NCBI GenBank assembly: GCA_022750155.1
Contig: JAKIWG010000003.1
Coordinates: forward strand, 35,351-99,350
Direction of reading: 5' to 3'
Source: Thermoplasmata archaeon
GTDB taxonomy: Archaea; Thermoplasmatota; Thermoplasmata; Lutacidiplasmatales; UBA184
Length of the DNA: 64,000 nt
Shown piece after piece: positions 5,945-63,761 of this stretch. Below the pieces are notes generated by a model. That model did no database searches, had not been told where the DNA came from, and saw nothing but the letters and a program-made list of their open reading frames with translations. The position numbers and the translations under genes are program-made. Every line of letters begins with the position of its first letter. Position 1 is the first letter of the stretch.

Positions 5945-6985
5945 ATGCGAGCTCTTCGCGCCCTGGTGCGCTCCGGCCTGGTGGCGACCCTCCCGATGTC
6001 GGCGTTGGTCCTGCTCTTGGTCGTCCCGACCGGGATCGGGTCTTCAATGGCTTCTTCCCACGTTTCCGGGGGACCTGCTGCCACGGTCCACCCCACCGCC
6101 GTTCACCCTGCTCCCCGATGGGTCGACCCGATGGTGTACGATGCGAAGGATGGCTACGTGGTACTGTTCGGCGGCGGCGGACCCACCAAGAATTTCGCCG
6201 ACACTTGGACCTATCAGGCCGGGGTCTGGACCAAGCTGACGCCTCCCACGCACCCCAGCGCCCGGAACGTCGAAGGGTTGGTCTACGATGCGAGGGATGG
6301 GAAGGTCCTGCTGTTCGGGGGGGGAGACTCCACCGGCTACCTCGGGGACACCTGGGAGTTCAGTGCCGGCCTCTGGACGCAACTCCACCTGGCCCTGGCT
6401 CCGTCGCCGCGCGGCGCCATGGGGATGGCCTATGACGCGAAGAACCGGTACGTGGTCCTGTTCGGGGGAGAGGGGCCGGGCCCGATGCTCAACGACACGT
6501 GGGCATTCGCGAACGGCCACTGGAAGCTCCTTTCCCCCACCACGGCGCCGACCCCGCGGCGCTCCTTTGGCATGACGTACGACGCGGCGGACGGCTACGT
6601 CGTGCTGTTCGGCGGGCTGGCCGCGGGCGACGCGAACGACACCTGGACGTTCTCGGGTGGCGTGTGGACCCAGCTCTCGCCGACGACCGCCCCCGGGGTC
6701 CGGGTCGCCCTGGCGATGGTATACGACTCGAAGGCGGGGACGGTCATCCTGTTCGGCGGGCGCGACGACAACACGCTCAGCCTCTACCACGACACGTGGG
6801 CGTTCCTCGGCGGAGCCTGGACGCTCCAGAACACCACGACGAGCCCGCCCGCTCGGCAGTGGCCCGGGATGGCCTACGACGGCGCCAGCGGGCGCGTGGT
6901 GCTGTTCGGCGGCGGCTCTACCGCCTACGCCCCGGTGTCGGTCCTTGGCGACACGCACACGTACTCGGCGGGCGTCTGGAGCTAG
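5945..6985 (+). CDS. Secreted kelch-repeat beta-propeller protein (paralog 1)
   Basis: Signal peptide MRALRALVRSGLVATLPMSALVLLLVVPTG; repeated YDAKDGYVVLFGGGG...DTWTYQAGVWTKL units. Confidence 0.85.
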   Translation: MRALRALVRSGLVATLPMSALVLLLVVPTGIGSSMASSHVSGGPAATVHPTAVHPAPRWVDPMVYDAKDGYVVLFGGGGPTKNFADTWTYQAGVWTKLTPPTHPSARNVEGLVYDARDGKVLLFGGGDSTGYLGDTWEFSAGLWTQLHLALAPSPRGAMGMAYDAKNRYVVLFGGEGPGPMLNDTWAFANGHWKLLSPTTAPTPRRSFGMTYDAADGYVVLFGGLAAGDANDTWTFSGGVWTQLSPTTAPGVRVALAMVYDSKAGTVILFGGRDDNTLSLYHDTWAFLGGAWTLQNTTTSPPARQWPGMAYDGASGRVVLFGGGSTAYAPVSVLGDTHTYSAGVWS

Positions 6986-7301: not shown

Positions 7302-8333
7302 ATGCAGGGTGGGCGTGGGTATCTGGGCTCCGGAGTTATTGCCTCACTCCCGGTGTCGGTGGTTCTTCTTCTTCTGGTGCCCGCGGGCCTCGCTGCCTCG
7401 ACCGGCGCGGCCCATTCCGGGGCCTCCCCGGCGGCGGTTCACCCATCGGCGAGATGGTCCACCCCGATGGCCTACGATGCCAAGGACGGGTACGTCGTCC
7501 TGTTCGGTGGCGGCGGAGCAACCAAGATGCTCAGCGACACTTGGACGTACAAGGCCGGGACCTGGACGAAGCTCGCCCCCACGACCCATCCCTCGGCCCG
7601 ATTCACCCAGGCAATGGTCTACGACGCGGCCGATGGCTATGTGCTGCTCTTCGGAGGGAACACGAACAACGGGGCGACCTTGTTCGGGGATACCTGGACA
7701 TTCAGCGCGGGGGTCTGGACCAAGCTCCACACCTCCGTGGCCCCCTCCCCTCGATACGGCATGTCGATGGCCTTTGATGCGAAGGACCACTACGTCGTGC
7801 TGTTCGGGGGTCAGGGCCCCACGACATTGTACAACGACACCTGGACCTTCTCCCATGGACACTGGACGCAGCTGACCCCGACCACCGTTCCGCCCCCCCG
7901 CCGCTCGGGCGGCATGGCGTACGACGCCGCCGATGGGTACGTCCTGATGTTCGGGGGCCTCAGCTACTCCGACGCGAATGACACGTGGGAGTTCGTCGGA
8001 GGGGCCTGGACTCAGATCTCGCAGATCAACACCACCGCCCCCGGGGTCCGGGTGGCCCCCGCGATGGTCTACGATGCCAAGGATCGGCACGTGGTGTTGT
8101 TCGGAGGGCGCGACGACAATTCGTTCACCCTGTACGCGGATACCTGGACCTTCCACTCCGGGGTCTGGACCCTTCGCCACCCGTCCACCTCCCCCGCGGC
8201 CCGTCAGTGGCCCAGCGCGGCGTTCGACGGGGCCGATGGGTACGTGGTCATGTTCGGCGGGGGGTCGAGCAACAGCGTGCCGGTGACCGTGCTCTCGGAC
8301 ACTCATACCTACCTGGCGGGGACCTGGACGTAG
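7302..8333 (+). CDS. Secreted kelch-repeat beta-propeller protein (paralog 2)
   Basis: Same architecture as 5945..6985; start MQGGRGYLGSGV chosen (ORF open to 7248), with TATA-like aacctatttg about 40 nt upstream. Confidence 0.8.
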   Translation: MQGGRGYLGSGVIASLPVSVVLLLLVPAGLAASTGAAHSGASPAAVHPSARWSTPMAYDAKDGYVVLFGGGGATKMLSDTWTYKAGTWTKLAPTTHPSARFTQAMVYDAADGYVLLFGGNTNNGATLFGDTWTFSAGVWTKLHTSVAPSPRYGMSMAFDAKDHYVVLFGGQGPTTLYNDTWTFSHGHWTQLTPTTVPPPRRSGGMAYDAADGYVLMFGGLSYSDANDTWEFVGGAWTQISQINTTAPGVRVAPAMVYDAKDRHVVLFGGRDDNSFTLYADTWTFHSGVWTLRHPSTSPAARQWPSAAFDGADGYVVMFGGGSSNSVPVTVLSDTHTYLAGTWT

Positions 8334-57877: not shown

Positions 57878-57987
57878 GCGGGAATCCACGGGGCGAGCCC
57901 CCATCCGAAGACGGGGAATGAGACACCCACTCATGGGGCGAACTCTTAAGACGGCCTCCGGCGTTTCGTAGGGTGAGGCGATTCACC

Positions 57988-58380
57988 ATGATCCAAGTGG
58001 AGGTCAAGCCCGAAGCGATGAGCCAGGTCCGCCGACTCATCGCGGGTCAAAAGCCCGACATCGCGGTCCGCGTCTACGCCCAGCCCGGCGGCGGAGGCTG
58101 CTGCGGAGGGGGAGGCGGTGCCGTCCAGTTCGGCATGGCGTTCGCCAAGCCGCGGGCGGATGACGAGGTCGTGAAGATCGACGGGTTCTCGGTCATCGTC
58201 GACCCGACGAGCGCCCAGTTCGTGAACGGCGCGGTCATCGACTACGTCGAGGACATCCAGGAGTCCGGATTCAAGATCACCAACCCTAGCCTGCCCGAGC
58301 CGGACGACGCGGGGAAGGCGGGCGGTTGCGGCTCCTGCGGCAGCAGCTCGGAAAAGGGCGGCGGCTGCGGCTGCGGATAG
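57988..58380 (+). CDS. A-type Fe-S carrier (IscA/HesB-like) with Gly/Cys-rich insert and tail
   Basis: VRVYAQPGGGGCCGGGGGAVQFGMAF...VDGFSVIVDPTSAQFVNGAVIDYVEDIQESGFKITNPS...GGCGSCGSSSEKGGGCGCG. Confidence 0.75.
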   Translation: MIQVEVKPEAMSQVRRLIAGQKPDIAVRVYAQPGGGGCCGGGGGAVQFGMAFAKPRADDEVVKIDGFSVIVDPTSAQFVNGAVIDYVEDIQESGFKITNPSLPEPDDAGKAGGCGSCGSSSEKGGGCGCG

Positions 58381-61872: not shown

Positions 61873-62730
61873 ATGGTCGCATATGCTCACCCCGAAGCGC
61901 TCGTCGAGAACGATTGGCTCGCCCAGCACCTCGATGACCCGAAGGTGCGGATCGCCGAGGTCGACTACGACCCTATGGCGAACTTTGCCGTCGGCCACAT
62001 CCCCGGCGCCCAGCTGTTCGACTGGCGGAAGGACATCAATGACCCCGTCAAGCGCGACCTGCTCTCGCGGGAGGCCCTCACGGCCTTGTTCCATCGGGCG
62101 GGGATCGCCCCGGACACGACCCTCGTGCTCTACGGCGACTTCAACAACTGGTTCGCGGCGTTCGCGTTCTGGGTGTTCAAGTACTACGGGTTCAAGGACG
62201 TCCGGATCCTGAACGGCGGCCGCAAGAAGTGGGTCTCCGAGGACCGGGCCTTCACCAAGGAGGTCGTCTCGGTCCCCCCCGGTTCGTTCCAGGCGCACGC
62301 GCCGGACGAGAAGCTGAGGGCGTACTACGACACGGTTCACGCCGGGCTCGACCACGTCAAATCCGGCGCGCTACGGCTCGTCGACGTACGGGGACCGAAG
62401 GAGTTCAGCGGCGAGATCACCGCACCCCCGGAGTACCCGACGGAGCACGCCCAGCGGGGGGGCCACATCCCCGGCGCCGCGAACATTCCGTGGGCCCAGG
62501 CCGTCAACGACGACGGGACGTTCAAGAGTCGCGAGCAGCTCGAGGCGATCTACCATCCCAAGGGGATCACCGGTCGAGAGCCGGTCATCACCTACTGCCG
62601 GATCGGGGAGCGCTCGAGCCACACCTGGTTCGTCCTCAGCTACCTGCTCGGATTTCCGGATGTGAAGAACTACGACGGGTCGTGGACGGAATGGGGAAAC
62701 CTGATCCGTTCCCCGATCGAGAAGCCGTAA
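61873..62730 (+). CDS. Thiosulfate/3-mercaptopyruvate sulfurtransferase (tandem rhodanese)
   Basis: LVENDWLAQHLDDPKVRIAEVDYD...; active-site loop TYCRIGERSSHTWFVL. Confidence 0.93.
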   Translation: MVAYAHPEALVENDWLAQHLDDPKVRIAEVDYDPMANFAVGHIPGAQLFDWRKDINDPVKRDLLSREALTALFHRAGIAPDTTLVLYGDFNNWFAAFAFWVFKYYGFKDVRILNGGRKKWVSEDRAFTKEVVSVPPGSFQAHAPDEKLRAYYDTVHAGLDHVKSGALRLVDVRGPKEFSGEITAPPEYPTEHAQRGGHIPGAANIPWAQAVNDDGTFKSREQLEAIYHPKGITGREPVITYCRIGERSSHTWFVLSYLLGFPDVKNYDGSWTEWGNLIRSPIEKP

Positions 62731-62749
62731 TCCCCGCGAAGCTCGCAGA

Positions 62750-63463
62750 CTATCGCCCGGCGGAGCCGTCGGCGCGGCGCCGCCTCGGTACGGGGCGTTC
62801 CTCCCGCCGTACGAGGAAATGGTGGAGGTTCCCATCGACCCGGTGGTGCAGCACCGAGTGCCCGGTCCGGTCGGACCACCGGACCATCTCGAGAGGGCTC
62901 GTTGCGTCGTCGGTGACCAGGAGCGTCACCTCGCCGGGGGGTCGCTGTTGAAGGGCCTCGTCCAGGCGCGCAAGGATCGCCTGGCACTCCGCCCCGATCT
63001 CGTACAGCTCCTGGTCCGGCATCGCCGGGTAGCAGTGGACCCGCCACTCTGCGACCTTGCGGCGCAGCGCCTCACGTACCTCGGGGGCCGGCGCGAGCCC
63101 GGAACCCGGACGGACCGGCTCAAAGGGACGGATCCGCGCGATCCATCCCTGCTCATAGGGGGCGTCGTTGATCGTTCGGGGACGGGCCTCGAGGGAACGG
63201 TTTCGCTCGACGACCTCGGCATCGACTGGCAACCGGACGGCGCCCGTGTACCGAACGCTCTCGACCGTCGCCACGCTCCGCCCGAGTGCCTGGACGCCCT
63301 CGATCGGACGGAAGCCGATGGATACGAACCGGCCGGCGAACGACGCGAGGACCGAGGTCACGCCGAGGGTGGCCGTCCCGTCCGCCGGGTCCGGCTTCAG
63401 CCAGACGTCCCGCTCGATGTCGTAGAGACGGTCGTCGGGCAGCGGGCATCCATCGACGTCCAC
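62750..63463 (-). CDS. GcvH-like domain fused to TusA-like domain; lipoylation lysine replaced by Arg
   Basis: N-term DVWLKPDPADGTATLGVTSVLASFAGRFVSIGF...VATVESVRYTGAVRLPVDAEVVERNRSLEARPRTINDAPYEQGWIARIRP; C-term YEIGAECQAILARLDEALQQRPPGEVTLLVTDDATSPLEMVRWSDRTGHSVLHHRVDGNLHHFLVRR. Confidence 0.75.
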   Translation of the reverse strand: MDVDGCPLPDDRLYDIERDVWLKPDPADGTATLGVTSVLASFAGRFVSIGFRPIEGVQALGRSVATVESVRYTGAVRLPVDAEVVERNRSLEARPRTINDAPYEQGWIARIRPFEPVRPGSGLAPAPEVREALRRKVAEWRVHCYPAMPDQELYEIGAECQAILARLDEALQQRPPGEVTLLVTDDATSPLEMVRWSDRTGHSVLHHRVDGNLHHFLVRREERPVPRRRRADGSAGR

Positions 63464-63500: not shown

Positions 63501-63761
63501 GTGTCCCGCGTCCGACCTCGAGCCGCCGTCACCAGTACTTTTTTCCCCCGCGACCGGTTCCCGCGGTGCGTGAGAGTGCACGCCGAGCTGCCGCTGGCGG
63601 AGCCTCCTAGGAACCGTTGCCGTTGCGGACACCCCCCGACGTCGCACATGAAGGTCGTACCGGTGTCGGAGCGCGCGGACGGGAGCTTCCGGCTGGACCC
63701 GGTGGGTCCGTGCGCGCAATGCGGCGAAGCTGCATGTCGGCGGTACACCGCCGGAGGCTGA
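63501..63761 (+). CDS. Small putative zinc-binding protein (start uncertain)
   Basis: RNRCRCGHPPTSHMKVVPVSERADGSFRLDPVGPCAQCGEAACRRYTAGG; CxCGH...CxxCGxxxC. Confidence 0.5.
   Translation: MSRVRPRAAVTSTFFPRDRFPRCVRVHAELPLAEPPRNRCRCGHPPTSHMKVVPVSERADGSFRLDPVGPCAQCGEAACRRYTAGG

Follow-up and report, generated by a model that had tools for sequence, protein, structure and literature searches.

A conserved LbpA-like/TusA-like fusion protein paired with a rhodanese in Lutacidiplasmatales-type archaea

The window, which is the whole 64,000-nucleotide stretch of DNA analysed here, encodes a protein that joins two sulfur-transfer-type domains in a single chain and is paired with a rhodanese. The N-terminal domain resembles LbpA, which is the lipoate-binding protein in the sHdr pathway of sulfur oxidation, and the C-terminal domain resembles TusA. 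This architecture is new and is assembled from known parts, LbpA-derived, TusA-like, and rhodanese-paired; no description of an LbpA-TusA fusion was found in the literature searched, which had most subscription journals outside its coverage. The fusion is probably a cytoplasmic sulfane-sulfur (persulfide) carrier derived from LbpA and TusA that has abandoned lipoate, uses three-cysteine chemistry, and is fed by the rhodanese.

Gene Model and Locus

The genome that contains the window (G000) is a Thermoplasmata genome of 2.13 Mb that is 93.7% complete, and the named organisms closest to it in public records belong to the Lutacidiplasmatales-type soil archaea, Candidatus Lutacidiplasma silvani among them. 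Its own family is designated f1 (103 genomes), and f25 and f11 are two other families of the same class. The features of the locus are as follows.

62750..63463 (-): LbpA-like/TusA-like fusion gene, 237 aa, GTG start; ORF with stop included, orthologues in three families
63026..63463 (-): N-terminal LbpA/GcvH-fold domain, residues 1-146; Pfam GCV_H, Foldseek, LbpA-type cysteines
62801..63022 (-): C-terminal TusA-like domain, residues 148-221; Pfam TusA, PDB TusA by profile
63251..63253 (-): Arg71 at the lipoyl-lysine position (VESVR), codon CGG; sequence and orthologue alignment
63446..63448 (-): Cys6, invariant (64/64), N-terminal LbpA-type cysteine (C-x-x-P), aligned with LbpA
63032..63034 (-): Cys144, invariant (64/64), C-terminal LbpA-type cysteine, aligned with LbpA
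62984..62986 (-): Cys160, invariant (64/64), TusA active-site cysteine (E-C-[SAQN]-A-[VIT]); TusA alignment
61873..62730 (+): convergent two-domain rhodanese, active site CRIGERS with the cysteine at 62596-62598; Pfam Rhodanese E 1.7e-33, conserved pairing
63501..63761 (+): small Cys/His-rich, zinc-ribbon-like protein, divergent from the fusion; neighbour in family f1 only, 33/33 measured loci

The original prediction of a two-domain, single-chain fusion is borne out by GCV_H and TusA profile matches within one ORF of 237 residues. The stops of the fusion and of the rhodanese (62730) lie tail-to-tail and are separated by exactly 19 bp, as had been predicted for the convergent pair. The span initially given to the fusion, 62731-63463, is correct at its high end, however, its low end falls on the first base past the stop of the rhodanese, and the ORF itself ends at 62750.

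The N-Terminal Half Is Better Read as LbpA than as GcvH

The N-terminal half was initially described as GcvH-like, and this description holds for the fold and the family profile. Pfam GCV_H matches residues 14-130 of the window protein (E 6.8e-21), and the structure model of this half matches GcvH structures with a TM of about 0.85 by target length (Foldseek). The description falls short in that the domain carries LbpA hallmarks and not GcvH ones only. The fusion scores 49.5 bits, far below the NCBIfam gcvH equivalog cut-off of 115.85, and G000 encodes a separate canonical GcvH with the ESVK motif. Published LbpA proteins feature one cysteine near each end, with some archaeal exceptions, that GcvH lacks, and their lipoyl lysine is strictly conserved (95/95) (PMC6067878). 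C6 and C144 of the fusion align with LbpA encoded in Thermoplasmata sHdr clusters (L093-L096) and in Chloroflexi Hdr-like/Etf clusters. Because these two LbpA-marking cysteines are kept, the N-terminal half is better read, on its sequence, as LbpA than as GcvH. In a 76-row tree the fusions form one clade (96/90) that joins a group of LbpA proteins from Chloroflexi (98/91) and stands apart from canonical GcvH; the alternative tree uniting the fusions with GcvH is worse, yet its p-AU of 0.074 means that it is not formally rejected.

Like LbpA (Cao et al. 2018, PMC6067878), the domain features the H-protein fold, an N-terminal cysteine in a C-x-x-P motif, a C-terminal cysteine, and an ES-x-[K/R]-x-x-G-type loop, and the branch nearest to the fusions is a Chloroflexi LbpA whose gene is linked with genes for Hdr-like and Etf proteins. 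Unlike LbpA, it has arginine in place of the lipoyl lysine, is joined to TusA, and sits outside any hdr-like cluster, in a genome that lacks sHdr-type LbpA. The domain shares the Pfam GCV_H profile and the structural fold with GcvH, whereas it differs from GcvH in the missing lipoyl lysine (VESVR versus ESVK) and in two cysteines that GcvH does not have. Having lost the lipoyl lysine, the fusion falls outside both LbpA and GcvH when these families are taken strictly.

Three Cysteines Are Kept and the Lipoyl Lysine Is Lost

C6, C144, and C160 are invariant in all 64 aligned full-length orthologues, 48 of which have no other cysteine in the aligned region. The lipoyl position is occupied by arginine in 41/41 f1 sequences, by lysine (9), arginine (5), or threonine (2) in the 16 from f25, and by lysine or arginine (4 each) in the eight from f11; the nine f25 lysines are found in an LbpA-like ESGK-[YF] context. 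The replacement of lysine by arginine that had been noted for the window copy (codon CGG, Arg71) is therefore fixed in the family of the window. It had also been proposed that orthologues retaining the lysine would mark this copy as a pseudogene. Such orthologues do occur in f25 and f11, however, the gene is intact and conserved and the arginine is present throughout f1, so that they do not make it a pseudogene.

Lipoyl ligases were found in nearly all genomes checked, using PF21948 in place of PF03099, which performed poorly as a model, and the loss of lipoate is thus not caused by missing machinery. The alignment indicates that selection held the three cysteines and released the lipoyl lysine. 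A second, divergent LplA-like ligase (59 bits) is encoded in G000 at C10:39025-39558 (-). Counterparts are present in all f1 genomes checked, and most f1 genomes having them lack sHdr-type LbpA.

The C-Terminal Half Is TusA-Like

TusA proteins feature a CPxP motif. The C-terminal half was predicted to follow the TusA pattern while keeping the cysteine and not CPxP, with a failure to match TusA by profile as the point on which this could fall, and the C-terminal half does match. Pfam TusA matches residues 164-220 of the window copy with an E of 1.8e-5 and 24.9 bits, slightly below the cut-off of 28.6; many orthologues exceed the cut-off, with a top score of 42.7 bits, and the profile matches 27/27 C-terminal halves tested. 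A profile of the C-terminal halves alone finds the E. coli TusA structures 1dcj and 3lvj (E about 8e-5) as well as short separate TusA-like genes in Chloroflexi. The predicted loss of CPxP is also confirmed. The motif is replaced by C-[SAQN]-A-[VIT] in 63/64 full-length orthologues and by CPET in one, and the window copy has C160 in CQAI. Because CPxP is lost, the C-terminal half is TusA-like rather than a classical TusA, and the reactivity of Cys160 may differ from that of the TusA cysteine.

The likeness to TusA (PF01206) consists of the profile match, the active-site cysteine, the DD-x-T region, and a C-terminal FLVRK strand. The differences are the C-[SAQN]-A-[VIT] motif, the joined LbpA domain, and an extra invariant cysteine 16 residues upstream. 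In the folds of the whole protein and of the C-terminal half, the latter has low confidence with five sequences covering it, and the cysteine geometry is not derivable from these models. One f25 genome carries a divergent second copy of the fusion (L078, G179:C98) with CPET and a threonine at the lipoyl position.

Distribution of the Fusion

The full-length fusion is found in about 80 of the 103 f1 genomes (hand-counted) and also in f25 and f11. The orthologues from the three families are 31-61% identical and share both the three cysteines and the neighbouring gene. The fusion is thus conserved and is neither an isolated oddity nor a pseudogene; a spurious ORF is likewise ruled out by the conservation across families. 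Among 390 genomes sampled from the phylum, the C-terminal profile matches only in the families already known to have the fusion, and a scan of public genomes, limited to close relatives, found full-length copies confined to Lutacidiplasmatales-type records. A profile search of 22 Chloroflexi genomes revealed no fusion, only separate TusA-like genes, and the TusA half was absent from the viral contigs searched.

The Rhodanese Partner and Other Neighbours

A convergent rhodanese lies no more than 80 bp from the fusion in 65/70 f1 cases and in 8/8 f11 cases. The linkage is looser in f25, where the six genomes checked in this way have the convergent rhodanese on the contig of the fusion, 0.5-44 kb away. 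CRIGERS is kept in the rhodanese at 24/24 loci examined. Among the f1 exceptions, a contig edge cuts the locus in G290 and the end of the rhodanese is still beside the fusion, and in G193 the rhodanese seems to be lost. The 103 f1 genomes comprise 77 with both genes, 18 with neither, and 8 that are discordant (hand-counted), which gives a Fisher p of 7e-13, uncorrected for relatedness or incomplete genomes. In one genome counted as rhodanese-only (G197), the contig ends 18 bp past the rhodanese stop, and the fusion may be missing from the assembly only. The other f1 neighbours are SUI1, an ABC transporter, and an IscA-type gene, and those in f11 look from their sequences like genes for an acyl-CoA dehydrogenase, an aminotransferase, and ribosomal protein S2. 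The originally proposed link with the rhodanese is real, since the pairing is kept across families though the other flanks differ between them.

The small Cys/His-rich protein (RCRCGHxPTxHM...GPCxxCGExxC) is divergent from the fusion at 4-60 bp in all measured f1 loci and was found in no f25 or f11 locus; its gene may share a promoter region and a module with the fusion. The window additionally encodes an IscA/ErpA-type protein at 57973-58380 (+), which contains an insertion rich in Gly and Cys (GGGGCCGGGGG) and has a Cys-rich tail. In L151 (2765-4764, G251) the same rhodanese is present without the fusion and is directly followed by a sulfite-oxidase-family gene, an arrangement that fits a thiosulfate-to-sulfate route.

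Relation to sHdr Systems

In sHdr systems, sulfur is transferred by rhodanese, TusA, and LbpA acting as partners (PMC6067878, PMC11582611). No hdr-like gene was found beside the fusion in the loci inspected, and sHdr-type LbpA is absent from G000. Because this LbpA is missing, a role in a resident sHdr system was rejected for this genome. sHdr-type LbpA is present in 18/103 f1 genomes, 16 of which also have the fusion, and in f11 genomes; about 64 f1 genomes carry the fusion without it. The sHdr systems of Hyphomicrobium and Metallosphaera (PMC11582611, PMC4175335) use the same three kinds of protein in sulfane sulfur transfer, however, these are separate proteins that feed sHdr, whereas in the fusion two of them are joined, lipoate is lost, and sHdr-type LbpA is mostly absent.

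Relatives do have real sHdr clusters (L093-L096), in which a lysine-bearing LbpA, TusA, DsrE, and ligase are each encoded by their own genes. These clusters look complete, three of them have two different LbpA-type genes, and most have an SQR-like gene. In Chloroflexi of the Anaerolineae (L045, L051, L058, L059) there are three tandem GcvH/LbpA-type genes, the third of which lacks both cysteines; the genes beside them, as read in L051, are of the Hdr-like, Etf, and lipoyl-ligase types.

Proposed Function and Alternatives

We infer persulfide chemistry, transfer from the rhodanese, and an order of transfer for the carrier proposed above. The rhodanese, through CRIGERS, would take sulfane sulfur from thiosulfate or another donor, set sulfite free, and pass the sulfane sulfur to Cys160 of the TusA half, and C144 and C6 of the LbpA half would accept the sulfur or present it to the next enzyme. 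Sulfite may reach a sulfite-oxidase-family enzyme. TST and sulfite oxidase were predicted for the order Lutacidiplasmatales (PMC9287336), and a sulfite-oxidase-family gene is present in G000. Sulfite oxidase was rejected as an obligate partner because it is absent from near-complete genomes with the fusion, e.g., G009 and G115, and this branch would thus be optional.

The original prediction suggested a sulfur-relay scaffold or regulator. A scaffold or regulator keeps some probability, but the sulfur carrier is favoured because the three cysteines are invariant. The regulatory form of this idea, a redox or persulfide sensor in which a cysteine switch controls the rhodanese or another partner, is improbable. 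It would fit the loss of lipoate and of CPxP, the invariant cysteines, and the tight rhodanese pairing, and cysteine-pair sulfane sensors exist in SoxR/sHdrR, as described in PMC10451225 and PMC11582611; however, the fusion features no DNA-binding or signalling domain and keeps the TusA cysteine and the DD-T region as in carriers. A less unlikely role, though still one we doubt, is that of a biosynthetic TusA substitute. In this role the fusion would receive sulfur from a cysteine desulfurase or from the rhodanese and supply it for tRNA thiolation, for molybdopterin, or for Fe-S assembly, and its LbpA half would serve only in docking. The fusion is the sole TusA-family match in G000 and in many relatives, and the IscA/ErpA-type Fe-S gene lies in the same region in f1. 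However, the IscA-type gene does not adjoin the fusion in f25 or f11, several genomes have separate TusA genes in addition to the fusion, and C6 and C144 are conserved just as strictly as C160, although a domain used only for docking would have no need of them.

It is marginally less probable than the sensor that the fusion is a lipoylated carrier where the lysine is kept, with an LbpA-like function tied to an Hdr-type enzyme and the arginine form as a reduced descendant. The lysines of f25 and f11, the sHdr LbpA found in f11 and in 16 f1 genomes, and the widespread lipoyl ligases would agree with this, but lysine was replaced by arginine or threonine several times within f25 and f11, f1 has arginine throughout, and most f1 genomes with the fusion (about 64) lack sHdr-type LbpA. 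A decaying or chance ORF, which the near-miss of the window copy at the TusA cut-off and the tendency of GC-rich DNA to yield spurious ORFs might suggest, has a negligible probability and is refuted by the conservation of sequence, cysteines, and neighbour in three families.

A wider reading of the sulfur carrier is advanced tentatively, as nearly evenly balanced: a cysteine-only, lipoate-independent LbpA descendant joined to TusA would work with a thiosulfate-type rhodanese as a self-standing relay outside sHdr. In sHdr, lipoate is the assumed carrier on LbpA and the role of the two hallmark cysteines is unexplained (PMC6067878). If true, the relay would show an LbpA fold that carries sulfane sulfur by its two cysteines alone, and the fusion is a compact system for testing these cysteines without lipoate. 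An LbpA-TusA fusion with the cysteines and without the lipoyl lysine also suggests that LbpA, TusA, and rhodanese are direct partners, both physically and chemically. Additionally, a thiosulfate sulfurtransferase was predicted in Lutacidiplasmatales (PMC9287336), and the fusion is a candidate for the protein that accepts its sulfane sulfur.

Elsewhere in the window, two tandem, similar repeat proteins are encoded at 6131-6985 and 7467-8333 (+), with kelch-like repeats (VLFGGGG...DTWTY).
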